Assembly (NCBI RefSeq): GCF_029635795.1
Contig: NZ_CP114280.1
Location: 2,666,001 to 2,730,000, forward strand
DNA length: 64,000 nt
Direction of reading: 5' to 3'
From: Dickeya lacustris
GTDB taxonomy: Bacteria; Pseudomonadota; Gammaproteobacteria; Enterobacterales; Enterobacteriaceae
Below the pieces are notes generated by a model. The model was not told the DNA's origin. It saw only the letters and a list, made by a program, of their open reading frames with translations, and made no database searches. The position numbers and the translations under genes were made by a program. This document shows, piece by piece, positions 3,743-19,861 of the stretch. Numbering within the stretch: position 1 is the first letter of the stretch; each line of letters begins with the position of its first letter.

Positions 3743-5032
3743 ATGATGAGCGATGTACTGAGCGAGGCATCAGGCGTTATCGACACCCGCGATGTGCGGG
3801 TAAACGGCGAACGCCTGTGGCAATCCCTGATGACACTGGCGCAAATTGGCGCGACGCCCAAAGGCGGCGTGTGTCGCCTGACGCTGACTGACCTTGACCG
3901 ACAGGGCCGTGACTGCGTGGTGGACTGGGGCAAAGCCGCCGGATTAACGGTAACGATTGACCAAATCGGCAATGTTTTCCTGCGCCGCGCCGGGCGCAAC
4001 AACGCGCTGCCGCCGATTGTCGCTGGCAGCCATATTGATACCCAGCCCACCGGCGGCAAGTTCGATGGTAATTTTGGCGTGCTGGCGGCGCTGGAGGTGA
4101 TACGCACCCTGAACGATTGCCAGATAGAGACGCAGGCCCCGCTGGAGATGGTGTTTTGGACCAATGAAGAGGGCTCCCGTTTTGTGCCGGTCATGATGGG
4201 TTCCGGCGTGTTTGCCGGGGTCTTCTCACTTGAGCACGCCTATGCTGCTACCGATGTGGACGGTAAAACGGTGCGCGAAGAGCTGACGCGCATCGGTTAC
4301 GTCGGGCCACAGACACCGGGCGATCACCCTATCGGCGCTTATTTTGAAGCCCATATCGAACAAGGGCCGATTCTGGAAGACGAAGGCATTGAGATTGGTG
4401 TGGTGCAGGCGGTGCTGGGCATCCGCTGGTATGACTGTGTTGTGACCGGGCAGGAGTCTCACGCTGGGCCGACGCCGATGGCGCTGCGTAAAGATGCGCT
4501 ACAGGTGGCGGCGCGCATCATGCAGGAAGTGGTGGCGATAGCCGGGCGCTTTGCTCCGCACGGTCGCGGCACGGTGGGCATGGTGCAGGTACACCCGAAC
4601 AGCCGCAACGTGGTGCCGGGCGCGGTGAAATTCTCTGTCGATTTTCGCAACATCAGCGATGCGCAGGTTGATGCGATGGACGCCGCATTGAAGGGGTATC
4701 TGCAACAACTTGAGCAGGAAACCGGCCTTGGTATTAGCCTGACGCAGGTCTCGCACTACCCGGCGGCCCCTTTTCACCCGGACTGCCAGGCGGCGGTGCG
4801 GCGCGCGGCGCAACAGCTTGGCTACTCGCACCGCGATATTGTCTCCGGTGCCGGTCACGATGCTGTCTACACCAGCCTGCTGGCCCCGACCGGCATGATC
4901 TTCATCCCCTGTAAAGACGGGATCAGCCACAATGAAATCGAATACGCCGCGCCCGAACAGGTAGCGGCGGGGGCTAACGTGCTGCTACATGCGATGCTGG
5001 AGCGCGCCGGTGTGGTCGCGCGCGGGCAGTAA
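3743..5032 (+). CDS. N-carbamoyl-beta-alanine amidohydrolase (M20 family, AllC/HyuC-like)
   Basis: Binuclear-metal hydrolase that would release beta-alanine (or beta-aminoisobutyrate), CO2 and ammonia from the dihydropyrimidinase product, ending reductive pyrimidine catabolism. The 429-residue protein shows the M20 metal ligands GSHIDT, the Asp-Gly in GGKFDG, the Glu pair in TNEEGSRF and a late histidine in GAGHDA. The open frame extends upstream into hydA, but the first ATG with a good site (GAGGA, seven bases upstream) is at 3743; a second ATG follows at once. A short hairpin (CGGCGTG-ATG-CACGCCG, 3701-3717) lies in the 91-base gap after hydA. Allantoate amidohydrolase or L-carbamoylase activity is possible from sequence alone. 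Confidence 0.84.
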   Translation: MMSDVLSEASGVIDTRDVRVNGERLWQSLMTLAQIGATPKGGVCRLTLTDLDRQGRDCVVDWGKAAGLTVTIDQIGNVFLRRAGRNNALPPIVAGSHIDTQPTGGKFDGNFGVLAALEVIRTLNDCQIETQAPLEMVFWTNEEGSRFVPVMMGSGVFAGVFSLEHAYAATDVDGKTVREELTRIGYVGPQTPGDHPIGAYFEAHIEQGPILEDEGIEIGVVQAVLGIRWYDCVVTGQESHAGPTPMALRKDALQVAARIMQEVVAIAGRFAPHGRGTVGMVQVHPNSRNVVPGAVKFSVDFRNISDAQVDAMDAALKGYLQQLEQETGLGISLTQVSHYPAAPFHPDCQAAVRRAAQQLGYSHRDIVSGAGHDAVYTSLLAPTGMIFIPCKDGISHNEIEYAAPEQVAAGANVLLHAMLERAGVVARGQ

Positions 5033-5058
5033 GCGTCTGATGCGCTACACAGTTCTGA

Positions 5059-5080
5059 CAGGGCAGCGGCGGCTGCCCTG
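5059..5080 (+). terminator. Hairpin at end of pyrimidine catabolism operon
   Basis: Perfect 9-bp stem CAGGGCAGC / GCTGCCCTG with a GGCG loop, 27 bases after the amidohydrolase stop. It has no T-run on either side, but lies between convergent genes and could stop transcription from both directions. Confidence 0.5.
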
Positions 5081-5112
5081 TGCCGTGATGATGCGTTGTC
5101 GCGTGAGTGGCT

Positions 5113-6282
5113 TTAGCGGTCATTGGCGGTGATGCGATGAATGGAATGCATCATTTTTTCCATACATTCATCAGCAATCGGCCCCATCAGCGCGTGCAGG
5201 CCAAGGGTATGGCCAACCCCTTCCAGCAGAGATATTTCAATATTCGGGAAATCATGGCGGTGCTCGATAAAAAAAGCATACTGCTTTTGATTATCTAATT
5301 GCGTATCCATGGTGCCGAGGAAAATGGATACGGGAAATGTGGTGTTTTTTAAATTGAACAGTTCCGGGGTAGCATCCGGCGCGAATAATTGTTTCCACCA
5401 TGCATAAGCGTATTGGGTGAACGGTGCGGGCGCGGGCCAGGGGTCATCGTCGTGTTGGGCCATTGCTGCTGCGCTTTGCTCTGTAAAATTTTTCATGCCT
5501 TCTGCGCGGGCGTTCTCCAGGTCGTGATAATCCCAGAACCCTTTATATGGAATAATTTTACTGATAGTGCTGATAAATGCGTGCGGGCTATTTCCATAGC
5601 CTTTTTTTATATCGTCGAATGTAATGATGCCGTTAGAGTGGGGGATATTTTTAAGCCACGTTATCTCTCTTTCATACAACTGCCATTGCATGATATCTGG
5701 CATGGAAAGCAGCGGCGGTGAGATTAACACCACGCCCTGTGGACGGATGCGGTAATGTTTAATCAGCCGGGAAATATTCATGCACCCTTCCGAGTGGCCG
5801 AGAAGAAGGATATTTGTGGTATCACCAGCGGCTGTATATTGCGTCAGATAATCATAAATTGTGAAAATATCATCGTATTGGCTAAGTGGGGTGACGGTGC
5901 CTCGAATATCAGCATCGATAAAATGTTCAAGAAAAGCCAGGTCTTTTTTTACAATAAATTCGGGTTGATTGAGTCTGGCATCGCGCCGGTGGCTGCTGAC
6001 GCCACGGCAGTCATAGCGGGCAACGGCGAGCCCTGACTCCAGCAGTTCCTGCGCCAGAGTTAAAAAAACAAAATCACTGTTGCTATGACTTTCACCCACA
6101 AGATAATCGCGATTATGAAGCCCGGAACCAGGGCACATCAATACGATGGATGGGCTGTGTTTATCGGTATTCGGCCAGTTAATTTGGCCATTAAGAGTGG
6201 CTTTTTTATCGCGACTCGGCAGCGAAAATGCGTCTACGGGGTAGGTTTTATTAAGTTCATCAATAGACAAGTAATCTTTCAT
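5113..6282 (-). CDS. Alpha/beta-hydrolase family protein
   Basis: A 389-residue alpha/beta-hydrolase. The nucleophile elbow is GHSEG (about residue 185), an oxyanion-hole region MCPGSG lies near residue 50, and a late histidine sits in GVGHTLG near residue 366, making a Ser-Asp-His triad plausible. No signal peptide is seen, so it is probably cytoplasmic. Codon use is more AT-rich than that of the upstream operon. It stands alone, convergent with the pyrimidine genes, and the substrate cannot be inferred; peptidase, esterase or lactonase roles all occur in this family. Confidence 0.75.
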   Translation of the reverse strand: MKDYLSIDELNKTYPVDAFSLPSRDKKATLNGQINWPNTDKHSPSIVLMCPGSGLHNRDYLVGESHSNSDFVFLTLAQELLESGLAVARYDCRGVSSHRRDARLNQPEFIVKKDLAFLEHFIDADIRGTVTPLSQYDDIFTIYDYLTQYTAAGDTTNILLLGHSEGCMNISRLIKHYRIRPQGVVLISPPLLSMPDIMQWQLYEREITWLKNIPHSNGIITFDDIKKGYGNSPHAFISTISKIIPYKGFWDYHDLENARAEGMKNFTEQSAAAMAQHDDDPWPAPAPFTQYAYAWWKQLFAPDATPELFNLKNTTFPVSIFLGTMDTQLDNQKQYAFFIEHRHDFPNIEISLLEGVGHTLGLHALMGPIADECMEKMMHSIHRITANDR

Positions 6283-6444
6283 AACGTGCCGCCTTTGGCG
6301 TAATTGATAAATGATTTTAACACTCGCACTCAGCGTTTTTAATGAATTTTTTTGTTCGGTTTTTATGGCGGTTTTTTGATAAAGGTGTTTTTCGCCGGAC
6401 GCGTTATTCCGGCGATGCTGGTTATAGAAAAGTTATGCTGAGGT

Positions 6445-6615
6445 TTATTTCTTTAAGCGATTTGAATTTCTCAGTGCGAATATCAGGCAAAAAAGGAGGG
6501 TGATATGTAAATAAGAGAGTGATTTTGTATAAAGATCATCAGCTATTCCAATGATGACAAGAAGGATTCCTGCATATATCAGAAAGCGGACTTTATCTTG
6601 CCTGAGAATTTTCAT
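6445..6615 (-). CDS. Small two-helix membrane protein, unknown function
   Basis: A 56-residue reading frame starting MKILRQDKVRF and ending RNSNRLKK. A GGAG ribosome site lies 5 bases before its ATG. Two hydrophobic stretches (about residues 11-24 and 33-47) are separated by a short polar turn (DDLYTKS), and both ends are basic, giving a plausible hairpin inner-membrane protein. I do not recognise a family. It lies between the alpha/beta-hydrolase and avtA, on the same strand as both, and fills what would otherwise be an empty 500-base gap. Confidence 0.6.
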   Translation of the reverse strand: MKILRQDKVRFLIYAGILLVIIGIADDLYTKSLSYLHITLLFCLIFALRNSNRLKK

Positions 6616-6738
6616 TCTTACTCCACAGAATATTTATGCCATGCCTTATTTACGCCGGGTAAACGGGCGTGGCGGTTGCATGAATGGGTAAAGAATAGAG
6701 CATATTGGCTGGATCGGCTCTCTGTGCTGTCTCTACTG

Positions 6739-6790
6739 CGGCCCTTTTCTGCGTGCGGCGACAAGCGACAACCGACAAGGAAAAGGGCCG
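6739..6790 (-). terminator. Inverted repeat after avtA, possible terminator
   Basis: An 11-bp perfect inverted repeat (CGGCCCTTTTC / GAAAAGGGCCG) separated by 30 bases begins 6 bases after the avtA stop on the minus strand. The stem is long but the loop is large and no T-run follows, so termination is only likely. Confidence 0.4.
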
Positions 6791-6796
6791 TTGTGT

Positions 6797-8056
6797 TTAG
6801 CGCGGGCTGGCTTCACGCCGCGCCCGGGCTATCTCGTCGGCCAGAATAGCGACGCCCTGCTCGATTTTCTCCGGCTCCGGCACATAGTTCATGCGCAGGC
6901 ACTGGTGGGCGTGTTCCCACTCTTGCTCCAGGCCGGGGAAGAAATAGTGGCCGGGCACCATCAGTACGCCGCGTTTTTTCAGGCGCTGGTACAGTTCATC
7001 GGTGGTGATGGGCAACTCTTTTAACCACAGCCACAGGAAAATCGCCCCTTCGGGTTTGTGGATAAGGCACACCTCCGGCGGCAGATAGCGGCGGATTATC
7101 GCAATGGTGTGTTCTACGCGCTGGCGGTAGAACGGGCGCACCACGTCGTTTGAGAGCCGCAGCAGGTCGCCGCGCCGGATCATCTCGTGGGCCAGCGCCG
7201 GGCCAATCGAGCCGGGTGCCAGGCTGACAATGCCGTTCATGTTGCCAAGGGCGTCGATAACGCTTTCTGCGGCAATCACAATACCGCAGCGCGCCCCCGG
7301 CAGCCCCAGTTTGGACAGGCTCATGCACAGAATGGTGTTCGGGTTCCACAGCGGTGTGGCATCGCTGAAAATAATGCCGGGAAAGGGCACGCCGTAAGCA
7401 TTGTCGATAACCAGCGGGATCTGGTGTTCGCGCGCCAGCGCATCCAGATGCTGCACCTCGTCGTCGGTCAGCACGTTGCCGGTCGGGTTGGTCGGGCGGG
7501 AGACGCAGATCATGCCGATGTCATCGGTAATGTTCAGCTTTTCAAAATCAACGTGATATTTGAACTGCCCTTCAGGTAGCAGTTCAATCTGCGGGCGCAC
7601 GGAGACAAACATCTCCTCATCGAGCCCCGAATCGGCATAACCGATGTATTCCGGGGCCAGCGGGAACAGCACGCGCTTGAGCTGCCCGGCGTCATTGCGC
7701 CCGGCGAACAGGTTAAACAGGTAGAAAAAGGCGCTCTGGCTGCCGTTGGTCAGGGCGATATTCTGCGGGCCAATCTCCCAGCCCAACTCTTCGCGCAACA
7801 GCGTTGCCAGCGAGTGCAGCAGGGCGTCTTTTCCCTGCGGGCCGTCGTAATTGCACAAGGCGTCTGTCAGCGTGCCTTGCGCCAGCAGGTCGCCGCACAG
7901 TTGCTGAAAATAGTCATCCATCGCGGGAATGTGCGCCGGGTTGCCGCCGCCGAGCATGATGGCTCCGGGGGTACGCAGCCCGTCGTTGAGGTCAGCCATT
8001 AACTGGGTAATACCGGAATGGCGGGTAAATTTGTTGCCGAAACGAGAGAAATTCAT
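6797..8056 (-). CDS. avtA: Valine-pyruvate aminotransferase AvtA
   Basis: PLP-dependent transaminase (aminotransferase C) that makes L-valine from 2-ketoisovalerate with alanine as donor. The 419 residues match E. coli AvtA (417) almost end to end from the start (FGNKFTRHSGIT), including the MLGGGNPA segment, the NPTGNVLTDDE substrate loop, and the PLP lysine in CMSLSKLGLPG. The start codon has no strong ribosome site but is fixed by homology. It lies downstream of the LepA paralogue on the same strand, separated by a 135-base gap with a hairpin, so is probably transcribed separately. Confidence 0.95.
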   Translation of the reverse strand: MNFSRFGNKFTRHSGITQLMADLNDGLRTPGAIMLGGGNPAHIPAMDDYFQQLCGDLLAQGTLTDALCNYDGPQGKDALLHSLATLLREELGWEIGPQNIALTNGSQSAFFYLFNLFAGRNDAGQLKRVLFPLAPEYIGYADSGLDEEMFVSVRPQIELLPEGQFKYHVDFEKLNITDDIGMICVSRPTNPTGNVLTDDEVQHLDALAREHQIPLVIDNAYGVPFPGIIFSDATPLWNPNTILCMSLSKLGLPGARCGIVIAAESVIDALGNMNGIVSLAPGSIGPALAHEMIRRGDLLRLSNDVVRPFYRQRVEHTIAIIRRYLPPEVCLIHKPEGAIFLWLWLKELPITTDELYQRLKKRGVLMVPGHYFFPGLEQEWEHAHQCLRMNYVPEPEKIEQGVAILADEIARARREASPR

Positions 8057-8144
8057 AAGGTGTCATTAATTATTGGTCGGTCGCAGGTAAGGCGCAACCT
8101 TAACGCGAGCGCAGATCCGGTGCAATCGGAACTGTTGCTGTTAA

Positions 8145-8171
8145 GCGGGTAACTCAAGTGGCGTTACCCGC
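8145..8171 (-). terminator. Stem-loop between the LepA paralogue and avtA
   Basis: A 9-bp perfect stem GCGGGTAAC / GTTACCCGC with a 9-base loop, 20 bases past the stop of the LepA-like gene. It is followed on the minus strand by TTAACAG rather than a clear T-run, so it is a weak intrinsic terminator or an mRNA 3' structure. Confidence 0.45.
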
Positions 8172-8190
8172 AATTGGCACGCGTTCGGCG

Positions 8191-9990
8191 TTAAACCTCA
8201 ATGGCCAGAATCGCCATAAACGCCTCGCGCGGGATATCCCGTTTGGAAAAGCCGATATTATGTTTCTTGTTCTCGCGCTGCTTGCGAATAAGCCGCTGTT
8301 TCTGCGACAGGCTGCCCTGAAACCCTTGCGCCAGCGCGCTTTTGCGCAGCGGCGGGATATCTTCACGGGCAATCACGCGGTTGCCCACTTTGGCTTGCGC
8401 CGGGACGGGGTACAGCTTGCGCGGGAGCACCTGCTTTAGCGTGTTGACGATCTGCGTGGCCCGCGCCCAGGCGTTTTGCCGGGCGATGATAAACGAAAAA
8501 GCATCAATTATTTGATTATCAAGGTAAATGTCGCAGCGCACCAGGTCGGCGCGCCGATAGCCAATAAAGGCGTAATCGAGCGTGGCGTAGCCCTGCGTCA
8601 GGGATTTCAGCTTATCGAAAAAGCCGAACACCATGTCGTACAGCGGCACATCCCAGTTCAGCGCCACCTGCCCGTTATCGAGATAGTGCATGTCGATAAA
8701 CTCCCCGCGCCGCGCGGCGCAAAAGGTCATCAGCGCGCCAACATAGTCATCGGGCGTGTGCAGCGTGCAGCGCACATAAGGCTCTTCTACCCATTTCAGC
8801 GTCTCTTCGCCGGGAAAGTGCGCCGGGTTATCAATCGTCAGGCACTGCCCGTTATGCAGCGTGACCCGGTATTCCACGCTCGGTGAGGTGACGATGACGG
8901 AAATGCCGTATTCCCGCTTTAACCGCTCCCGGATAATGTCCAGATGCAACATGCCGAGAAAACCGCAGCGAAAGCCCGCGCCGAGGGACGCGGAAACCTC
9001 GGGCGTGATGTGCAGCGCGGCATCGTTAAGCGAGAGTTTGCCGATGGCGTTGCGCAGGCCCTTGAGGTCGTCATCGGCGTCGGGATACAGGCCGGAAAAC
9101 ACCATCGGTTTCATCTCCTGATAGCGTGCAACGGGCGCTGTCGCCGGGGCATCGGCCAGGGTGAGCGTATCGCCGACCCGAATGGCCGCCGCCTCTTTCA
9201 GGCCAGCGGTGAGATAGCCGACTTCGCCGTCTCGCAACCGGGTAAGCGGCTGGCGCTGGGGGAAAAAGGCCCCGGTTTCACTGACGTCAACGCGCTGCCC
9301 TGAGGACATAAAACAGAGCGTGTCGCCGGGGCGGATAACGCCATCGACTACACGCACATGCATGATGGCACCCTGATAGACATCGTAGTGCGAATCAAAC
9401 ACCAGCGCGCGTAGCGGGGCGTCGTTCCGGCCTTGCGGCGCGGGAAAATGGCGGGCGATAAACGCCAGCACCTCGGCCACGCCTTGCCCGGTTTTTGCCG
9501 ACACCGCCAGCAGGTTGCTGATATCCAGTTCAGGGATTGCCGCCAGCTGGCGGGTGGTGCTGACGACATCCGCCTGCGGGCTGTCGATTTTATTGAGTAC
9601 CGGCAGGATAGTCAGACCATGCTGGCGCGCCAGACTGAGGTGCGCCAGCGTCTGTGCCTGTACCCCTTGGGTGGCATCGACCAGCAGTATTGCCCCTTCG
9701 CAAGCCGCCAGGCTGCGCGAGACTTCGGCGGAGAAATCGACGTGCCCGGGGGTGTCCACCAAATTGAACTGATAATGCTGGCCACGCGCATCCTGATAGT
9801 TCATGCGCACGGTTTGCAGCTTGATGGTGATGCCGCGCTCGCGCTCGATATCCATGCTATCCAGCAGCAGCTCACGCATGTCGCGTTTGGCCACCGTCGC
9901 GGTCAGCTCGATAATCCGGTCAGCCAGCGTCGATTTGCCGTGATCAATGTGGGCGATAATACAGAAGTTACGAATCAGAGAAGTGTGCAT
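8191..9990 (-). CDS. LepA/EF4-like translational GTPase, divergent paralogue
   Basis: A 599-residue protein collinear with LepA (elongation factor 4), a ribosome-associated GTPase. All G motifs are visible: P-loop AHIDHGKST, switch RERGITI, DTPGHVDF, NKID and SAK. The middle and C-terminal EF4 domains are recognisable (LGKLSLNDA-like, GFRCGFLGMLHLDII, KLKSLTQGYATLDY). Its sequence is well diverged from the near-invariant enterobacterial LepA, and it is not beside lepB, where the housekeeping copy sits. I infer a second EF4-type GTPase rather than the canonical gene. The upstream AAAGG site supports the start at 9990. Confidence 0.82.
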   Translation of the reverse strand: MHTSLIRNFCIIAHIDHGKSTLADRIIELTATVAKRDMRELLLDSMDIERERGITIKLQTVRMNYQDARGQHYQFNLVDTPGHVDFSAEVSRSLAACEGAILLVDATQGVQAQTLAHLSLARQHGLTILPVLNKIDSPQADVVSTTRQLAAIPELDISNLLAVSAKTGQGVAEVLAFIARHFPAPQGRNDAPLRALVFDSHYDVYQGAIMHVRVVDGVIRPGDTLCFMSSGQRVDVSETGAFFPQRQPLTRLRDGEVGYLTAGLKEAAAIRVGDTLTLADAPATAPVARYQEMKPMVFSGLYPDADDDLKGLRNAIGKLSLNDAALHITPEVSASLGAGFRCGFLGMLHLDIIRERLKREYGISVIVTSPSVEYRVTLHNGQCLTIDNPAHFPGEETLKWVEEPYVRCTLHTPDDYVGALMTFCAARRGEFIDMHYLDNGQVALNWDVPLYDMVFGFFDKLKSLTQGYATLDYAFIGYRRADLVRCDIYLDNQIIDAFSFIIARQNAWARATQIVNTLKQVLPRKLYPVPAQAKVGNRVIAREDIPPLRKSALAQGFQGSLSQKQRLIRKQRENKKHNIGFSKRDIPREAFMAILAIEV

Positions 9991-10493
9991 ACCGAAGACC
10001 TTTTACATCATGGTTTGCCTTTCTCGGCGCACGAACCGTGCAGGAAACGGCAAACAACAGGAAACGACGCTGAAGATTCAGCGTGCGAAACAACCAAACG
10101 ATGTAAAAGTAAATAGCCGGGGCTGATGATAGAGCATGGGCGTCGGGGCTGGCAAGTCAGCGGTGCCGGGGTGCCGATGGGCTATGATGCAATAATCTGT
10201 TTTTTCTCGTTTTTTATCTGTTTCTTGTAGCTGAAGTTTTTCAGCTTCTCTCTCAGGGCTGGCGTCGCCTGAATCCACATGAGCTGAAATTCGTCAGCTA
10301 ATGATGCCGTTTACCGTTATTTTTGCTGAAAATCGTCAATGATTTTTGTGCTTTCTGTGATTTGAGCGACAGATTTAGCGCAAAAAACACCCATTTCTAT
10401 CGTCTGGTGAGGGAAGTCACAGTCTCTCTGCTGTTGGGTTTGTAGTCTTGGTCTTCGCAAGCTTAATCAATTCAGCTTAAAAGGGTGCAACGG
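9991..10493. other. Divergent intergenic region with two related stem-loops
   Basis: About 500 bases between the LepA-like gene and the exported DUF4432 protein, both transcribed outward. Two short stem-loops share the arms AGCTGA/TCAGCT: 10229-10246 (AGCTGAA, loop GTTT) and 10282-10299 (loop AATTCG). They could be operator half-sites or mRNA structures. I see no gene and no clear promoter hexamers that I would defend. Confidence 0.4.
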
Positions 10494-11702
10494 ATGAAAA
10501 AACAACTGGCAATAGGTATCGCACTGGCGCTGGCTTCCTGGCAGTTGGGGGCGCAGACCTTCGTGCTGACGGACGTGGAAAGCAGCACCGAGAAAGGTAA
10601 CTGGCAGGTCAGCAGCGAGTCGCTGAAAATAAAAGATGCACACTTCAGCATTGAGCAAAAGGTATTGCACGGCGGCCGTCAGGAAGGCAGCAAAGTCGTT
10701 ACCATTACCAGCCCGAACGGGTTGCAAATTGCCCTGAGCCCGACGCGCGGCATGGATTTGCTGCATGTTACGGGCAAAAACATTCGCCTGGGGTGGGATT
10801 CACCGGTCGATGAAGTGGTAAACCCGAATACCATCACGCTGGAAGGGCGCAACGGACTGGGCTGGCTGGAAGGCTTTAATGAAATGATGGTGCGCTGTGG
10901 CTACGAATGGACAGGCCACCCGGTGACCAGCGACGGCATGATCTACACCCTGCATGGCCGCGCCGGGAATACGCCTGCGTCCAAAGTGGTGGTGGACGTG
11001 AGCGACAAAGCGCCCTACACCATCACCGTGCGCGGCTTGCTGAAAGAAAACAGCTTCAAGAAATCCAACCTCGAAACCTGGACGGAACTGCGCTATGTGC
11101 CGGGCAGCGAGTCGTTTACCGTTCATGATGTGCTGACCAACAAAGCCGACTACCCGCGCGACTACCAGATTATCTATCACAGCAACTTCGGCACCCCGAT
11201 TCTGGAAGAGGGCGCGCGCTTCCTGGCACCGGTAAAAGAGATTTCACCGTTTAACGACTATGCCAAAGCAGGCCTGAAAAGCTGGCAAAGCTATAAAGGG
11301 CCAACGAAAGGCTTCGACGAAATGGTATTCAACATGACGCCGTACGCGGATAAAGCCGGTAAAACGCTGGCTGCGCTGGTTAACCGTGCGGGTGATAAAG
11401 GCGTTTCTATCGCGTTTGATACCCAGCAGTTGCCGTTGCTGACGCTGTGGAAAAACACCGACACCGAGAAGCAAGGCTATGTCACCGGCATTGAACCCGG
11501 CACCAGCTACGCCTACCCGGTCACGATTGAGCGCCAGCAAGGGCGGGTGAAGAAACTGCAACCCGGCCAGAGCACCACGTTTGAGCTGACCTACAGCCTG
11601 TTAAGCAGCCCGGCGGCGGTGCAGCAAACCGAAGAAAAAGTGAAATCGATTCAGGGCGACCGCCCCACCACGCTGACGGAAAAACCGATCGCGGTGGAAT
11701 AA
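10494..11702 (+). CDS. Exported DUF4432 (aldose-epimerase-like) protein
   Basis: A 402-residue protein with an N-terminal signal peptide (MKKQLAIGIALALASWQLGAQ, probable cleavage after the GAQ region), so likely periplasmic. The body resembles DUF4432, whose members have a galactose-mutarotase-like fold; the stretch SPTRGMDLLHV and the GYEWTGHPVT and LHGRAGNTPA segments are typical. The substrate is unknown; a role in handling plant-derived sugars is only a guess. An upstream GTG at 10485 keeps the frame open, but the ATG at 10494 has AAGGG at eight bases and starts the signal peptide, so I chose it. Confidence 0.75.
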   Translation: MKKQLAIGIALALASWQLGAQTFVLTDVESSTEKGNWQVSSESLKIKDAHFSIEQKVLHGGRQEGSKVVTITSPNGLQIALSPTRGMDLLHVTGKNIRLGWDSPVDEVVNPNTITLEGRNGLGWLEGFNEMMVRCGYEWTGHPVTSDGMIYTLHGRAGNTPASKVVVDVSDKAPYTITVRGLLKENSFKKSNLETWTELRYVPGSESFTVHDVLTNKADYPRDYQIIYHSNFGTPILEEGARFLAPVKEISPFNDYAKAGLKSWQSYKGPTKGFDEMVFNMTPYADKAGKTLAALVNRAGDKGVSIAFDTQQLPLLTLWKNTDTEKQGYVTGIEPGTSYAYPVTIERQQGRVKKLQPGQSTTFELTYSLLSSPAAVQQTEEKVKSIQGDRPTTLTEKPIAVE

Positions 11703-13237: not shown

Positions 13238-13261
13238 CAACCTGCGCCAAGACTGCAAGCC
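13238..13261. repeat. Left 24-bp direct repeat bounding the AT-rich island
   Basis: The 24 bases begin CAACCTGCGCC and end GCAAGCC; an identical copy is at 19838-19861, and the bases on either side of each copy differ. It lies 46 bases upstream of the ghrB start, where base composition changes sharply to AT-rich. Likely an att-like or duplicated target sequence from island insertion. Confidence 0.85.
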
Positions 13262-13385
13262 TGTTATCTCTTGATGAAAATAACGAATGATATTTTTATT
13301 AATGAATCACGATGTAATACATTGATTAATTTTTAATTAAATACTGAGCTATGTTTTTATAGAGTAATAAATTTAATTTTTTACG

Positions 13386-14288
13386 TTAGCTAAGATAATT
13401 TTCACTTAAAATAAGTTCTTGACTAATGAAGTCAGCAAAAGCTCTGACTTTTGGTGACAGATGTCGATTAGATGGCCAAATTAAGGACATTGCTCCTAAT
13501 GGCACCATGAATTCTTCCAGGATTGGACGAAGTAAACCGGCGTTAATAGCCTGCTTGGCAACGTAGACAGGTAGATGGGCAATACCTAATCCGTCTGTAG
13601 CAGCTCTTAGCCCAGCATGAGTATTATTAAAAATAAGATTTCTGGGGAGTTCTAAATTTGTATATGGTGATTTAAAAGACCATGTCGCAATACGCCCGTT
13701 TGATGGATATTTGAAATGTATACAGTGGTGATTCAATAAGTCGATTGGTGTATTTGGCAGCCCATGGTGTTTAAAATAATTCTTATCGCCGCAAACAACA
13801 AAATGCTGCTCACCGATTTTACGGCCAACCAAACGACTGTCCGCAAGTTCGCCACTCCTCACTGCGACATCAATGCCTTCTGCAATAATATCAACCACAC
13901 GATCTTCAAAATCGATATCAAGTTCAATATCAGGAAATTTTTGCAAAAATTTTGGTAATAACGGCATCAGGAGGCTATGACCGAAAATCTGTGGCACATT
14001 AACCCGGAGCTTTCCTTTTGGATGTGATCTGATCTCAGAGATCACTGCTCTGGCATCGCAAATTTCATCCAGTATATGCTTACAGCGCTCGTAGAAAACG
14101 CTTCCCTCCTCCGTTAACCCGATACTGCGAGTTGTACGGTGGAAGAGCCTGACACCTAGCTCATCTTCGAGTCTGGCTACACTTTTGGCGATAGCTGATG
14201 ATGAAACGCCAAGAACCCTGCCAGCGGCTGCATAGCTGCGAAGTTCAGCGGCGTAAACGAAGATGTTTATCGCCCTCAAACTCTCCAT
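13386..14288 (-). CDS. LysR-family transcriptional regulator of the island
   Basis: A 300-residue LysR regulator with an N-terminal winged helix-turn-helix (residues about 1-60, including SYAAAGRVLGVSSSAIAKSVARLEDELGVRLFHRTTR) and a C-terminal effector-binding domain. It is transcribed away from the biosynthetic genes across a 283-base AT-rich spacer, the usual LysR arrangement, so it probably controls that operon and itself. The inducer is unknown. Composition is AT-rich like the rest of the island. Confidence 0.88.
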   Translation of the reverse strand: MESLRAINIFVYAAELRSYAAAGRVLGVSSSAIAKSVARLEDELGVRLFHRTTRSIGLTEEGSVFYERCKHILDEICDARAVISEIRSHPKGKLRVNVPQIFGHSLLMPLLPKFLQKFPDIELDIDFEDRVVDIIAEGIDVAVRSGELADSRLVGRKIGEQHFVVCGDKNYFKHHGLPNTPIDLLNHHCIHFKYPSNGRIATWSFKSPYTNLELPRNLIFNNTHAGLRAATDGLGIAHLPVYVAKQAINAGLLRPILEEFMVPLGAMSLIWPSNRHLSPKVRAFADFISQELILSENYLS

Positions 14289-14320
14289 ATTCCCCCACGT
14301 ATTGAAGACAAATTTTCCTC

Positions 14321-14338
14321 AGTGTAAGTACATACACT
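14321..14338. promoter_or_regulatory. Inverted repeat, candidate LysR operator
   Basis: Perfect inverted repeat AGTGTA-AGTACA-TACACT, 33 bases upstream of the LysR start and in the shared divergent promoter region. Size and dyad symmetry suit a LysR site; the assignment is by position only. Confidence 0.45.
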
Positions 14339-14571
14339 TATATTTACAATCTTACATCCAGTATTTAATCTTAAAGAAAATAAACGTTTGAGTATTCTAT
14401 TTTTATTGCCTTATTTTACCTTAAAAGTTTTTTATGAAAATGTTCACATTATAAAATCCCGATTTATGGGCTTTTTCTAACAGTGGGTATTAATTATATC
14501 CCATGTGAGTTTACCAATTCTTTAAGAATCAGTTATCGCAATGTTATATATTAGGAGATGTTGATATCTAT

Positions 14572-15057
14572 ATGGGCGAAGTCATACATACGATTTCATC
14601 AGATAATTCTGATGAATCATTAATAATTTATTTTGCAGGATCAATTCGGGCCGGTCGAGATGATGTTCCAATTTACGCCAAGTTGATAGATAAACTTAAA
14701 AAATACGGAGTTGTTATTACTGAGCATGTTGGTGATTATAAGTTATCGGTGAATGGGCAATCATTTTTGAGTGATAAATTTATTCACGATAGAGATTTAC
14801 ATTGGCTTAGACATTCTCATGTGGTGGTAGCAGAGGTTACAACACCAAGCCTTGGTGTTGGGTATGAAATTGCTACAGCGATCGGTTGGCGTATACCGGT
14901 CATTACTCTGTACAGGAAAAATAATAATAGTGTATCTGCGATGATCTCGGGGAGTGATGGCTGTCGCCATTTTGAATACGAAGAAGTATCAGATGCTTAT
15001 AATATCATTGAAGATGAATTTAAAAAAATGGGATTTGATTTAAGTGATGAATCGTAA
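14572..15057 (+). CDS. DNPH1/MilB-like nucleoside monophosphate N-glycosidase
   Basis: A 161-residue member of the nucleoside 2-deoxyribosyltransferase superfamily, closest in pattern to 2'-deoxynucleoside 5'-monophosphate N-hydrolase (human DNPH1/RCL). Matching segments are YFAGSIRAGRDD (residues 20-31), YGVVITEHVG, IHDRDLHWL (71-79) and VVVAEVTTPSLGVGYE (84-99), which hold the catalytic Glu and phosphate-binding Ser. MilB and BcmB, which cleave hydroxymethyl-CMP to free 5-hydroxymethylcytosine, belong to this superfamily and are paired with a hydroxymethylase, as here. AGGAG lies 14 bases before the ATG, a long spacing. First gene of the operon; it overlaps the next by 11 bases. Confidence 0.8.
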   Translation: MGEVIHTISSDNSDESLIIYFAGSIRAGRDDVPIYAKLIDKLKKYGVVITEHVGDYKLSVNGQSFLSDKFIHDRDLHWLRHSHVVVAEVTTPSLGVGYEIATAIGWRIPVITLYRKNNNSVSAMISGSDGCRHFEYEEVSDAYNIIEDEFKKMGFDLSDES

Positions 15058-16129
15058 TATTACTACAGCACTAGTTAGTACACTGAATAATATTCTTAAA
15101 AATGGGTCACATGTTGGCTCTCGCGATCAAGAGCAGATAGAAGTTCTTTCAACGCTAACTAAAATTACCAAGCCATCGGAACGTTTTCTTGTTATTCCCG
15201 GGAGAAATAATAATGTTTTTGCCCAAGTTGCAGAAACAATGTGGGTTTTAGCGGGAAGAAACGATCTTGAATTTTTAGATAATTATCTTCCTCGTGCAAT
15301 TGAATTTTCTGATGATTTGAAAACATGGCGCGCGGCCTATGGACCGCGTTTGAGAAAGTGGAATGGGACTGTTGATCAGCTACAAGGTGTCATTAAACGG
15401 TTTCAAGAAGACCCTCTAACCAAGCGTGCAGTCATAAGTATTTTTGACCCTGAAAGTGATTACCGGGAAACAAAAGATGTACCGTGTAATAACTGGCTTC
15501 ATTTCATTCAACGCAACGGTTGTTTAGATTTACATGTCACAGTTCGTGCAAATGATGCCATCTGGGGATTCAGTGGCATTAACTTTTTTGAATGGAGTGT
15601 GCTCCATGAGATTATTGCTAAAACTATGGGGTGGCGTGTTGGTAATATCTCATGGTATGTAGGGACATTTCATATCTATAGTCGTCATTATTCTACAGCG
15701 AAAAAAATATCTCAGATAGAAAAGCCTATTAGTATGTATGAGTGTGGTGTACACCCAACAGTTATAACGACGACTGTGGATGAACTGGATAATGTTCTCG
15801 AACTGTTTTTTAAATCTGAGGAGTTATCCAGAAGTGGAGAGTTTAATAAAGCTTCTATAATTGCCAAAGAAATATCAGATCCATTTTTTAGAAATTCAGC
15901 GATATTGATGAAAATATATAATGCTATAAAATTAAATATAGATAAAGATATTACAAGCAGCTATCTCAATGAGTTGGGTCAATCTGATTTTCGTATAGCT
16001 GCAATTGAATATCTTAGCCGAAAATGGAAATCACCGATGGTTTTTGATGGGGTGAAAGATATATCACCAGACTTTTATCAAGCGTTTCATTCCATGAATT
16101 CTTGCATTAATAATTATGTAATCAGCTAA
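15047..16129 (+). CDS. Thymidylate-synthase-fold enzyme, candidate pyrimidine nucleotide hydroxymethylase (MilA/BcmA-like)
   Basis: A 360-residue protein with a thymidylate synthase fold. Seen: ETMWVLAGRNDLEFLDNY (folate/dimer region), AYGPRLRKW, TKRAVISIFDPE (the Arg pair region), the catalytic cysteine in PCNNWLHF (Cys147), and VRANDAIWGFSGINFFEW replacing the RSxDxxLGxPFN motif of true ThyA. Such changes are typical of dCMP/CMP hydroxymethylases. ThyA is about 264 residues; roughly 100 extra C-terminal residues here match nothing I know. It overlaps the N-glycosidase gene, so the two products probably act in sequence: hydroxymethylate a nucleotide, then release the base. A GTG three bases upstream is an alternative start. 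Not a housekeeping thyA. Confidence 0.75.
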   Translation: MNRNITTALVSTLNNILKNGSHVGSRDQEQIEVLSTLTKITKPSERFLVIPGRNNNVFAQVAETMWVLAGRNDLEFLDNYLPRAIEFSDDLKTWRAAYGPRLRKWNGTVDQLQGVIKRFQEDPLTKRAVISIFDPESDYRETKDVPCNNWLHFIQRNGCLDLHVTVRANDAIWGFSGINFFEWSVLHEIIAKTMGWRVGNISWYVGTFHIYSRHYSTAKKISQIEKPISMYECGVHPTVITTTVDELDNVLELFFKSEELSRSGEFNKASIIAKEISDPFFRNSAILMKIYNAIKLNIDKDITSSYLNELGQSDFRIAAIEYLSRKWKSPMVFDGVKDISPDFYQAFHSMNSCINNYVIS

Positions 16130-16147
16130 TCTAACTTGGGTCTTTGT

Positions 16148-17371
16148 GTGAAAAAAATATTAAACATCTCCGTTCCAAATATTAATCGGTCAAAGCTTTT
16201 TGTTACGTCAACCATTTTCAACGCAACAGGTAGCGGACTGGTTATGGCCTTCATGATGGTGTATTTCAATAGAACAACAAATCTTAGTTTGTCAGCGATT
16301 GGATTTTCTATTGCAATGGGGAGAGCACTGTCATCGATTGTACCAGTATTTATTGGTCGATTACTGGATAAAATAGGCCCTAAAAAAATATCCATATTAG
16401 GAGATTTTATTAGTGGATGCGGATTTATATTATGTATTTTCGCCAAAGACCCCTTAACTATCATGTTGACACAGTTTTTTACTCAGGCTGGTGCTCATAT
16501 TTTTTGGACCTGTAATAGAGGGCTTGTGTCCCTTGCATCAAAAGGTGAGGGTATTCATATATGGTTTGGACTTATCTCATCCATCAGGAATGTGGGATTG
16601 GGATTAGGAACGATAATTAGTTCTCTTGCATTTTCTAACGATTCTATAGATAACTTATTCTTTATTATTTTTGCCTCAGCATCACTCTATTTTCTTTCAT
16701 GTATTACATTATTGGTCTGGAGGCCTGATGGAAGCGTTTTTAATGGTAATAATGTCGAAAAAAACAACACAACTATTAAAAGTGTTTTATTTGATAGAAA
16801 ATATAGAAGTTTGCTTTTTGTGAACTTAGGTTTGGTTCTTTCGGCAATGGTTATACCTCTTGTTATTGTTATTTACTCTACCCAGCAGCTTGGTTTACCA
16901 CCTTTTTTTTCAGGGTTTTTGATTTTTCTAAATACGGCAATGGTTTCAATATTAAGTGCCCACGTTGCTTCATGGACAAAAAATCATGATTCAATATTAA
17001 ATATAAAATGGTCTTATGTTTTGAATATTTTATCATTCATGATTTTTTGGGGCGCTGGATTTATTATAAATCAGCATCAGGTGCTGGTGTTTTCAATTAT
17101 GGTTTTGGCTATGGTTATTTACAGCATAGCAGAAATGATCTCTTCACCTTCAGCAAATTTTCTGAGTATTGATCTGGCACCAAAGGTTAATAACGGTAGT
17201 TATATGGCCGCTTTTCAGATGACGTGGTCGATAGGAATGACTGTGACACCAGCTATTATTGGTTGGCTTATGGATATAAATAAGCACGCTACATGGAGTG
17301 CTCTTATTTTAGTCATGGTGTTTATTTTTTTATTCGGTTTTAAAGTATTTAAGAGAGATATAAATGGATAG
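16148..17371 (+). CDS. MFS transporter, probable product exporter
   Basis: About 407 residues with a dozen hydrophobic segments and the MFS loop motif between helices 2 and 3 (GRLLDKIGPKK). MFS efflux pumps beside small-molecule biosynthetic genes commonly export the product and protect the producer; that role is inferred from position. No ATG exists near the N-terminus: GTG at 16148 gives MKKILNIS, while a TTG at 16136 would add four residues. Neither has a strong ribosome site. It starts 18 bases after the TS-like gene and overlaps the following ATP-grasp gene by 8 bases. Confidence 0.8.
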   Translation: MKKILNISVPNINRSKLFVTSTIFNATGSGLVMAFMMVYFNRTTNLSLSAIGFSIAMGRALSSIVPVFIGRLLDKIGPKKISILGDFISGCGFILCIFAKDPLTIMLTQFFTQAGAHIFWTCNRGLVSLASKGEGIHIWFGLISSIRNVGLGLGTIISSLAFSNDSIDNLFFIIFASASLYFLSCITLLVWRPDGSVFNGNNVEKNNTTIKSVLFDRKYRSLLFVNLGLVLSAMVIPLVIVIYSTQQLGLPPFFSGFLIFLNTAMVSILSAHVASWTKNHDSILNIKWSYVLNILSFMIFWGAGFIINQHQVLVFSIMVLAMVIYSIAEMISSPSANFLSIDLAPKVNNGSYMAAFQMTWSIGMTVTPAIIGWLMDINKHATWSALILVMVFIFLFGFKVFKRDING

Positions 17372-18633
17372 TTCGTTTTTTAATGAAAAAATTAAAGTAT
17401 TAATAATTGAGCCGATTGGGATGGGGGGGGAGTTACTATTAAATGCTACCTGTGCTCTCGGATATCACTCTATTGTCGTAACAACTGAAAATGTATATAA
17501 ATCAACGTTAATAAAAAACACTCATCTTATAGATGAAGTAATATTTGCGGATTTTTCTGACACTAAAAAAGCGATAGATTTTTTAGTTAAGGAAGTAGCT
17601 GATTTAGGTATTTCAGGGGTGGTTGTTGCTTGGGAGTTTTTGACGGATGTTGCTGCTGAAATAGCAGAAAAACTAAATGTTTGTGGGCCAGATGCATCAC
17701 TCTCTAAAGCGAGAAGAAATAAACACACGATGTATAGGGTATTAGCTAAGGAGACTTGTCCGCTACCCGAATTACAGGCTGTTCTTACAACAGACAGTAA
17801 TTTTACTCATATTCCCTATGAGGAACTAGATTATCCTCTTGTTGTAAAACCAGCAGAAAATGCAGCATCTTTTGGTGTTTCCGTTGTGAATTTCTTGCGA
17901 AGAGTTTTCACAGGCTTTTAAAGATGCATCACAATGGACCCATGAATATCCACATGGGATACCTTTTAGTAATGAAATTCTTGTTCAAGAATATATCCCT
18001 GGGCAAGAATTTAGTGTAGAGGCGCTGTCTATTTCTGGTCGATATTTTCCTTGGGGTGTGACAATGAAATTTACCACATCAGGTAAGGCTCGTGCCGAAA
18101 CTGGACATATTTTTCCTGCGCCAATTTCAGATATACTTCGGGATAAAATATTAGGCATAGCAGAAAAAGCAGCTTTGGCTCTGGGTATTACAAATGGAAT
18201 TAGTCATACGGAAATTAAGCTAGACAAAAATGGGGAGCCTCGAGTTATTGAGAGTTGTTCACGCCCGGCTGGCGATTATATTCCTCGCTTGGTTAAATTA
18301 TCGACCGGTGAGGATCCTTTGGAAATCTATGTAAAACAGGCTGTTGGTGAATTGCATACAGATTTCTCTCCGGCTAAACCGTATTGTTTTTCCGCTATTC
18401 AGTTTATTCGGCCAAATATCGATGGGAAATTCGTCTCAATTAATATCCCTTCAGTTTTAAGTAGCGCTAAGATAGTTGATTCGCGGATTACAGTGGTCGA
18501 AAATTCACATGTCCAACCGGGAACAACAAATATTGAACGTTTAGGATGGACTATTATATCTGCTGACACAGCAGATGCGATTGTTGGCGCGATGGAAGAA
18601 TTAGAAAATAGTACAAGGATTTTTATCGAATGA
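17364..18633 (+). pseudogene. ATP-grasp carboxylate-amine ligase, interrupted by a one-base frameshift
   Basis: The N-terminal half (17364-17921) and C-terminal half (read from about 17893; next ATG 18064) form one ATP-grasp ligase of about 422 residues if one T of the run 17891-17893 is removed. The junction then reads GVSVVNSCEEF, the normal ATP-grasp pattern. Other motifs: nucleotide-binding YPLVVKPAENAASFGVS, EYIPGQEFSVEAL, and the metal-binding end VIESCSRPAGDYIP. Such enzymes form amide bonds from an acyl phosphate, as in BacD-type dipeptide synthesis. As written, the protein lacks half its active site. Either the pathway is disabled or the base is a sequence error; all neighbours are intact. 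Confidence 0.75.
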
Positions 18634-19796
18634 ACTCATTTTCTCAGCTTTGCTTGAGGTCTCTTGATATTTCTCAAGCATCTCCTTTTCTTGAAATGGC
18701 GTGGGATAGAATAAAAAGAGAACATCCAGACTCTGTCCTTATTCTTCAAGATCAATCAAGGGGCGAAAGCCCCTGTGGAAAAAGATCAATTGATAGTATT
18801 CTTAAAGTTAATGAGCAGAACGATGCTGATTTTCATAGCATCTTGTCATGGTCTATTCCTAATGAACGTACGATAGAAGATATAACGCTATTTCCTAAAA
18901 TAAAATCTATCCCGGGCCCTCTTAATTCTGTATATAAACTTTCAGATAAACGAGCCACTAAGATATTATTTGAGCAATTTTTACTTCCTACGCCTAAATG
19001 GGAAGTTCTTGATCGTGAATTTACAAGGGGAGAATTATTAAGAAATGAGGTGAAGGAAAAGATAGAGTGTAATCTTCTAAATCACATTCCTTTCCCTATT
19101 GTCATTAAACCTCTCTGGGATTGTATGGGGCATGGCGTTGAAATTATTAATAATTTAAATGAACTGGTTGAAGTGCTATCTTTAAATAATAAAAGAACAA
19201 TTCTCGCTGAATCGTTCATAGATGGTGATCTTGGCTGTGTTGAAATAATAGGTGTGCCTGGATGTTATTTTTTTCAGCCACCTTGTCTCACAGGAAAGAG
19301 CCGGGATGGCGTTCGCTCTAACTTTGATACTGTTAGAATATGTCATCCCAATTTTTTCAGTAGGCAATTAAGCGCTTCTATTAAAGAAAAAATTGTTAAT
19401 GTTCTTGAGTGCTTAGATTTTTCAGGTGCTTGTTGTGTCGATTTTATTACTACTAAGGATGATATTTACTTTTTAGAGATAAATCCGCGTATCAGTGGTA
19501 TTAGTTGCCTTAGTTCTGCTGCAAGTGGGGTTAACTCATTTGAGGCTACTTATTTAATTTCTTCTAATCAATGGGGTGGGCATATATTTGAAAATAGAAA
19601 AAGTAATTTTTCTGCTATTCAGATAGGAGGTACTCATGTCGAAAAATATATATCGCTATTGGAGTCAAATAACGATCTGAAAATTGTCAGAAATAATATT
19701 ATCTCTGTTGATGGTAATGAATCACGTAATGTAATAGTTTCGGGTGCTTCTGTATCTATTGATGATTTTTTAAAGTTTGCAGATTTAACACCTTAA
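18630..19796 (+). CDS. Second ATP-grasp ligase
   Basis: A 388-residue ATP-grasp protein distinct from the preceding one. Seen are the central nucleotide-binding segment PFPIVIKPLWDCMGHGVEI (about residues 153-172), the lid-side acidic segment AESFIDGDLGCVEI and the Mg-binding motif FLEINPRISGIS near residue 290. It overlaps the previous gene by the four bases ATGA, so translation is coupled. Two different ATP-grasp enzymes suggest two amide bonds, for example joining a base or amino sugar to amino acids. Substrate unknown. Last gene of the island; the right 24-bp repeat starts 41 bases after its stop. Confidence 0.78.
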   Translation: MNSFSQLCLRSLDISQASPFLEMAWDRIKREHPDSVLILQDQSRGESPCGKRSIDSILKVNEQNDADFHSILSWSIPNERTIEDITLFPKIKSIPGPLNSVYKLSDKRATKILFEQFLLPTPKWEVLDREFTRGELLRNEVKEKIECNLLNHIPFPIVIKPLWDCMGHGVEIINNLNELVEVLSLNNKRTILAESFIDGDLGCVEIIGVPGCYFFQPPCLTGKSRDGVRSNFDTVRICHPNFFSRQLSASIKEKIVNVLECLDFSGACCVDFITTKDDIYFLEINPRISGISCLSSAASGVNSFEATYLISSNQWGGHIFENRKSNFSAIQIGGTHVEKYISLLESNNDLKIVRNNIISVDGNESRNVIVSGASVSIDDFLKFADLTP

Positions 19797-19837
19797 CTTT
19801 GCAATCAATATATTTAATTTCTGAGTTAGAAAACAGA

Positions 19838-19861
19838 CAACCTGCGCCAAGACTGCAAGCC
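19838..19861. repeat. Right 24-bp direct repeat bounding the AT-rich island
   Basis: Identical to 13238-13261. It ends 6 bases before the yiaC stop codon (reading from the left), and base composition returns to GC-rich immediately after it. Confidence 0.85.

Follow-up and report, generated by a model that had tools for sequence, protein, structure and literature searches.

A recently acquired gene cassette of Dickeya lacustris predicted to produce a 5-hydroxymethyl-uracil conjugate

A 64,000-nucleotide stretch of Dickeya lacustris DNA (assembly GCF_029635795.1, contig NZ_CP114280.1, positions 2,666,001 to 2,730,000; hereafter the window, whose numbering we use) carries a cassette of six genes. 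They encode a LysR-family regulator, a predicted DNPH1-type nucleotide N-glycosidase, a predicted nucleotide hydroxymethylase of the thymidylate synthase (TS) fold, a predicted exporter of the major facilitator superfamily (MFS) and two ATP-grasp ligases, LigA and LigB. The cassette is best explained as a 6.6-kb natural-product unit that was gained recently by horizontal transfer. We favor, with modest confidence, the view that it makes 5-hydroxymethyl-uracil, conjugates this base with amino acids and exports the product. What the computations show directly is which genes are present, that the set recurs, that it was inserted, the class of the predicted folds and the identity of key residues. 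The original prediction for the region had named the same genes, and every one of them is present.

Enzymes of the cassette

The TS-fold gene (15044 to 16129, plus strand; PF00303) is listed with a GTG start, the likely start being the ATG at 15047. The predicted structure of its product contains both the TS core and a C-terminal helical domain like that of MilA, the hydroxymethylase of the mildiomycin pathway. Among solved structures, MilA gives the best match in both sequence and fold, and the model fits it far better than thymidylate synthases, which supports the hydroxymethyl-pyrimidine pathway proposed in the original prediction. The catalytic residues Cys148, Glu64, His210 and Tyr212 are retained. 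According to the sections consulted of a study of MilA, Asp186 recognizes cytosine, Lys133 and Ala176 recognize ribose, and the efficiency on dCMP is one fifth of that on CMP (PMC5175136). The window enzyme keeps the ribose pair as Lys127 and Ala169 but has Asn180 in place of Asp186; our residue survey covered the best 120 of 761 TS homologues, and Asn occupies this position in all 120, one of them being the window's own protein. In a tree of 50 rows, with MilA entered as a 199-residue fragment, the Lys/Ala/Asn (KAN) clade (support, 97/92) is separate from the KAD clade (99/98), and the window enzyme lies apart from the MilA clade.

The Asn is shared with phage dUMP hydroxymethylases such as SPO1 gp29 (30% identity across 90% of the query), which belong to a related lineage of the tree. 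The rest of the phage-type triad differs, because these phage enzymes have Arg and Ser at the deoxyribose positions, where the cassette enzyme has Lys and Ala. Databases annotate the homologues as thymidylate synthase; the best score against the plain ThyA NCBIfam equivalog was 76, under the cut-off of 174.55 bits. Ala85 aligns with a ThyA tryptophan that we take to be E. coli Trp80, the residue steering reduction. A separate ThyA-like match of 266 amino acids lies elsewhere in the genome; the cassette enzyme is therefore not the sole member of the thymidylate synthase family.

The glycosidase gene (14572 to 15057, plus strand; PF05014) overlaps the TS-fold gene by 14 bp, in line with the overlap originally described. 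Its best PDB matches are Rcl/DNPH1 (E-value of 1e−32), and MilB, the mildiomycin glycosidase, is not among its 12 PDB matches at E ≤ 1e−3. The protein resembles human and rat DNPH1 (Rcl), a 5-hydroxymethyl-dUMP N-hydrolase, in overall sequence (E-value of about 1e−30) and in its catalytic and base-reading residues. Tyr24, Glu55-His56, Asp80, Ser98, Glu104 and Ser128 are all present in an alignment with rat Rcl, and they are kept in 9/9 aligned glycosidases of Lys/Ala/Asn loci (L numbers denote the loci compared; L003, L031 and L032 were left out of this alignment). In the sections consulted, a study of DNPH1 describes it as a nucleotide-pool sanitizer in which Tyr24 reads the deoxyribose (MilB counterpart, Phe17), His56 reads the uracil (MilB counterpart, Glu62) and Ser128 sits on a segment that positions the hydroxymethyl group, with roles also given for Glu55, Asp80, Glu104 and Ser98 (PMC10603095). 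The MilB motif F-L-(G/A)-(G/A)-P-F-(R/K)-X-L is not kept in the window protein (Y-F-A-G-S-I-R-A-G), in which the Arg is common and Pro-Phe is replaced by Ser-Ile. Of the initial label, a DNPH1/MilB-type glycosidase, the DNPH1 half holds by these residues, whereas the MilB half fails at the motif and at Glu62. We predict that the enzyme releases 5-hydroxymethyl-uracil.

The glycosidase gene adjoins the TS-fold gene in 12 of 13 Lys/Ala/Asn loci, counting that of the window, but in none of 7 others (Fisher, 1e−4). This value overstates independence: L031 is the locus of L001, L002 and L003 are near-identical, L030 to L032 come with about 1.5 kb of flank, L007 begins near a contig end, and the MilA-type and Asp-type plasmid loci (L038 to L043) and phage records were left out of the count. 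A natural fusion protein, P0095, joins the two enzymes, and no such glycosidase was found in 10 viral-contig loci searched. Three plasmid or genomic Lys/Ala/Asp rows have context; a MilB-type glycosidase is present in L038 and L042, and none is listed for L039. The L042 locus (5001 to 10690), on a Streptomyces plasmid, encodes a MilA-type TS, the MilB-type glycosidase, a hydroxymethylpyrimidine kinase, an FAD oxidoreductase and a P450, and is possibly a further hydroxymethyl-pyrimidine cluster.

LigA is broken into an N-terminal piece (17364 to 17921, plus strand; PF18130), which resembles L-amino-acid ligases of the ATP-grasp type, and a C-terminal piece in a different frame (18058 to 18633, plus strand; LAL_C2 at 25.1 bits, under the Pfam cut-off of 29.4). 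The frameshift noted earlier is thus real in the present sequence. Relative to the intact homologues of L001, L002 and L004, the pieces cover residues 1 to 176 (61 to 63% identity) and 231 to 422 (64 to 66%). Because these identities resemble the 55 to 78% of the unbroken genes, the break appears to be recent, unless it stems from an error in sequencing. The intact L002 homologue matches the L-amino-acid ligases BL00235 (E-value of 2.2e−19) and BacD (1.4e−16), which supports a ligase of this kind, and LigA also matches DdaF. LigB (18630 to 19796, plus strand), the second ATP-grasp ligase, is intact and may share the fold of these ligases; its fold comparison gave a tie between 3vot and PurK/biotin-carboxylase chains, and its sequence matches to solved structures were weak. 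At least 19 LigB relatives besides the window's own were among the matches listed in a protein search, which was not exhaustive, since it missed a 25%-identical protein of Apilactobacillus kunkeei.

Recurrence of the cassette

A scan of genome contigs yielded 13 loci. Searching for the six-gene set elsewhere, as the original prediction had suggested, found it unbroken and in identical order in Tenebrionibacter (L001), Pantoea gossypiicola (L002), P. anthophila (L003) and an uncultured enterobacterium (L004). Glycosidase, TS, MFS, LigA and LigB genes without a LysR match are present in Glycomyces (L006) and in an actinomycete metagenome-assembled genome (L009), where the TS gene is split in two overlapping frames; L032 shows the set as far as the start of LigA, where its sequence ends. 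A 32.9-kb plasmid of the honeybee symbiont A. kunkeei (L024, 15905 to 22243) carries three ATP-grasp genes, a DNPH1-like glycosidase, a Lys/Ala/Asn TS and an MFS gene in altered order, with identities to the window proteins of 45% (glycosidase), 48% (TS), 32 to 33% (LigA) and 25% (LigB; E-value of 7e−21). Cassette relatives occur in bacteria of three phyla. The LigA, LigB and MFS profiles were partly built from the same loci, so that their matches are partly by construction; independent support for recurrence comes from the gene content of the loci, the A. kunkeei Pfam matches and pairwise comparisons. What appears to be a second cluster type is found in a member of the Lachnospiraceae (L007, 668 to 6678) and in Rhizobium rhizogenes (L008, 2989 to 12201), where, by Pfam, the enzyme pair is followed by nonribosomal peptide synthetase (NRPS) condensation, adenylation-carrier and UDP-glycosyltransferase-like proteins; L008 additionally carries LysR and MFS genes. 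An analysis of the adenylation domains in this variant assigned no substrate to them.

A TS-family match at E ≤ 0.001 was obtained in 45 of 58 relatives, among which only the own genome and that of L004 gave matches stronger than 1e−100, the others being no stronger than 5.7e−16. At 1e−50 the enzyme was found in 3/392 family genomes, own included, and in 2/398 genomes drawn from the phylum, namely the own genome and one with an Arg/Ser/Asn relative; E. coli genomes contain no DNA match to positions 15044 to 18600.

Related TS-fold enzymes were also seen in other surroundings. In two rhizobial plasmid islands (L025, 8986 to 14345; L026, 9079 to 14348), an Arg/Ser/Asn enzyme occurs with a metallophosphoesterase, an NTP pyrophosphohydrolase and a uracil-DNA glycosylase, with caspase-family genes further on, possibly a modified-uracil defense or DNA-modification module. 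Plasmids of Agrobacterium (L040, 4995 to 7991), Pantoea (L041, 4980 to 7953) and Rhizobium (L043, 4938 to 8053) share a trio of an Asp-type TS-fold enzyme, a hypothetical protein and an ImmA/IrrE-family peptidase.

Insertion of the cassette

The island has a GC content of 36.3%, compared with 54.8% for the remainder of the window, and is bounded by a perfect pair of 24-bp direct repeats (13238 to 13261 and 19838 to 19861, both plus strand; 6600 bp from start to start) that are att-like or a target duplication. Such a pair is not expected by chance (mean of 0.00 in 100 shuffles of the window), and a third copy, allowing up to 3 mismatches, was found neither in the window nor elsewhere in the own genome. 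In the nearest genome of the genus (GhrB identity, 99%), ghrB and a GNAT gene flank an empty site that contains a single perfect copy, and an additional copy with 3 mismatches lies at another place. The ghrB gene is present in 8/9 same-genus genomes, own included; it adjoins GNAT and tag in all seven others, and in none of these seven did the 4-kb ghrB locus contain an island gene match. A recombinase match was not found among the island genes by Pfam. The boundaries given originally, 14289 to 19796, were close, but the LysR gene falls just outside them and the inserted unit with its repeats spans 13238 to 19861. That the genes are not grouped by chance is supported by their recurrence at other loci and by the deviating GC content.

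Proposed pathway and alternatives

In the proposed pathway, the TS-fold enzyme would hydroxymethylate a uracil nucleotide at C5, with methylene-tetrahydrofolate as donor; the nucleotide would be UMP to judge by the ribose residues and could also be dUMP. The glycosidase would split the product into free 5-hydroxymethyl-uracil and sugar phosphate, and this cleavage would at the same time prevent the unusual nucleotide from entering nucleic acids. The two ligases would then link amino acids with one another, attach them to the base or to its hydroxymethyl group, or do both; the MFS pump would export the conjugate, and LysR would govern the operon from the shared promoter. Substrates, step order, conjugation, export and any toxic role are what we infer. 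Uracil is the likely base because the residues of both the TS-fold enzyme and the glycosidase point to hydroxymethyl-uracil. Conjugation with amino acids seems slightly more probable than its absence, and action as an antimetabolite is a plausible but tentative suggestion. Because LigA is interrupted, the finished product is probably not made in the present genome.

Several observations weigh against this pathway. The sugar signals conflict, Lys127 and Ala169 indicating ribose and the glycosidase Tyr at the DNPH1 Tyr24 position deoxyribose; since MilA itself accepts dCMP, with one fifth of the efficiency that it has for CMP, 5-hydroxymethyl-dUMP may still be the intermediate. The substrates of the ligases are not readable from sequence, LigA is broken, and hydroxymethyl-uracil has neither amine nor carboxyl and may enter an ATP-grasp reaction by way of an ester or N-acylation. 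By Pfam, the pump of A. kunkeei belongs to the MFS, yet it has no significant pairwise match to the window MFS (E-value of 6.5), so that the two pumps may be no more than analogous. In Yersinia massiliensis (L005, 10001 to 14736), a Lys/Ala/Asn enzyme lies upstream of a pyridoxal-dependent decarboxylase and an aminotransferase, and the glycosidase is absent from this 21-kb locus. The searched literature, as far as its texts were accessible, reports no product or activity for any cassette member.

Could the base be cytosine, as the original prediction suggested, with CMP hydroxymethylated and the released base coupled to amino acids? The match to MilA by sequence and fold and the shared Lys and Ala would agree with this, but Asn at the Asp186 place in all listed homologues, His at the MilB Glu62 place, Ser-Ile for Pro-Phe and the separation from the MilA clade do not; with Asn180 and a DNPH1-type partner, we dropped hydroxymethyl-cytosine as first choice and consider it unlikely. 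It is quite unlikely that the enzyme works by reductive methylation, yielding 5-methyl-(d)UMP and then free thymine. The database annotation and the retained Cys148, Glu64, His210 and Tyr212 fit such an activity; the MilA-like C-terminal domain, Ala85 at the tryptophan place, the other ThyA-like enzyme in the genome and the Ser128 region of the partner glycosidase, which positions a hydroxymethyl group, speak against it. A flavin-dependent pyrimidine hydroxylase resembling phage dCMP hydroxylase structures is extremely improbable, as MilA scores 14 Z units higher and also covers the C-terminal domain.

The remaining alternatives concern purpose. There are 498 phage records with a related enzyme at E ≤ 1e−15, several phages with such enzymes carry modified thymine, and Arg/Ser/Asn enzymes lie in plasmid islands beside uracil-DNA glycosylase, as might be expected if the cassette were a module that serves the nucleotide pool or anti-phage defense by making or destroying hydroxymethyl-uracil nucleotides. 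DNPH1, a pool sanitizer in the sections consulted (PMC10603095), would fit as well. Because pump and ligases recur with the enzyme pair, and NRPS genes replace them in L007 and L008, we regard such a module as decidedly improbable. Very improbable, too, is that (deoxy)ribose 5-phosphate, or a sugar moved to another acceptor, is the useful product and the base is waste. PF05014 is the nucleoside 2-deoxyribosyltransferase family and the original prediction had already raised the sugar phosphate, but sugar phosphates are obtainable by ordinary metabolic routes, and a dedicated hydroxymethylase would be pointless if the sugar alone mattered.

Relation to known systems

Our favored reading, a hydroxymethyl-uracil conjugate, would make the cassette work like MilA/MilB (mildiomycin) and BcmA/BcmB (bacimethrin), which likewise combine a TS-fold hydroxymethylase with a nucleotide N-glycosidase that frees a hydroxymethyl-pyrimidine base. 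The resemblance to MilA extends to the fold, including the C-terminal domain, and to the ribose positions. Because the defining residues are absent (Asn for the base-selecting Asp, and a DNPH1-like glycosidase) and the clade is separate, the pair lies outside the MilA and MilB families. The mildiomycin and bacimethrin clusters are defined by base-to-sugar or thiamin-antivitamin genes; in agreement with the original prediction, none of these is among the cassette's six genes, which instead include ATP-grasp ligases. Unlike DNPH1, the cassette glycosidase is genetically coupled to a hydroxymethylase and an exporter and is therefore probably biosynthetic, not merely sanitizing. PolB of polyoxin biosynthesis also modifies UMP at C5 toward a natural product, but it is a UMP/dUMP C5 methylase of the flavin-dependent ThyX family. 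In the sections consulted, its authors propose 5-hydroxymethyl-UMP as a later polyoxin intermediate through oxidation of 5-methyl-UMP (PMC5003785). This metabolite is hence not new; its direct folate-dependent formation and its use for a released base would be.

The A. kunkeei pPKS cluster is a described relative, with its three ATP-grasp, DNPH1-like, TS-like and MFS genes in a single run; it differs in an accompanying type II polyketide set, another gene order, the lack of LysR and an MFS that is not demonstrably orthologous. It was published as a putative polyketide antibiotic, and the accessible text mentions the three ATP-grasp genes and leaves the TS/glycosidase pair uninterpreted (PMC9648514). 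The original statement that no described cluster has this set is qualified by that mention; the searched literature, most subscription journals being outside its scope and texts seen in part, contains neither such a cluster nor a described UMP hydroxymethylase. Known Pantoea antibiotic clusters were considered and, on the wording of two papers, set aside: the text on 12 clusters (PMC11350110) lacks the terms thymidylate, ATP-grasp, glycosidase and deoxyribosyltransferase, and that on PNP-4 (PMC7744662) lacks thymidylate, ATP-grasp and N-glycosidase.

If our reading is correct, nucleobase natural products would gain a second hydroxymethylase/glycosidase pair of independent evolutionary origin, in which uracil replaces cytosine and which has an enzyme specificity that the searched literature did not show. 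The reading would point to an unassigned cluster family spread across Enterobacterales, actinomycetes and honeybee lactobacilli, and would give DNPH1, a human pool sanitizer and drug-target candidate, biosynthetic relatives. The enzyme claims concern small proteins and are directly assayable. More speculatively, and with real doubt, we suggest that the enzymes of the Lys/Ala/Asn clade form a family of UMP 5-hydroxymethylases, which would occupy the vacant corner of the CMP/dCMP/dUMP/UMP set. On this view, the family descends from ancestors resembling dUMP hydroxymethylases, along a line parallel to that of MilA, and became paired with a DNPH1-type glycosidase; the pair would supply a mobile class of antimetabolites, found in several phyla, in which 5-hydroxymethyl-uracil is joined to amino acids by ATP-grasp ligases or NRPS modules, depending on the host.

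Other features of the region

The LysR gene (13386 to 14288, minus strand; PF00126/PF03466) is divergent to the operon, and its product is 72 to 78% identical to the counterparts in L001, L002 and L004. For the MFS exporter (16136 to 17371, plus strand; PF07690), whose homologues start about 4 codons further in, the corresponding values are 60 to 64%. The region between the LysR and glycosidase genes contains a conserved 30-bp operator-like block (14321 to 14350), which rests on an alignment of five intergenic regions and a shuffle control and may have a regulatory role. At least 21 of the 26 positions of a window 26-mer from this region were matched in each of four relatives, and none of 40 mononucleotide shuffles exceeded 16; an operator pattern failed in 2/6 intergenic regions, one being the window's. 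The single extra island open reading frame of at least 69 amino acids (16126 to 16464, minus strand) has no Pfam match. Outside the island, the protein encoded at 10485 to 11702 has its nearest named homologues in Dickeya (93%) and Musicola (92%), which places the host near a group that contains soft-rot pathogens and is compatible with the plant-pathogen host assumed at first. A gene for a LepA/EF4-like GTPase, judged by eye, lies near the island at 8191 to 9990.

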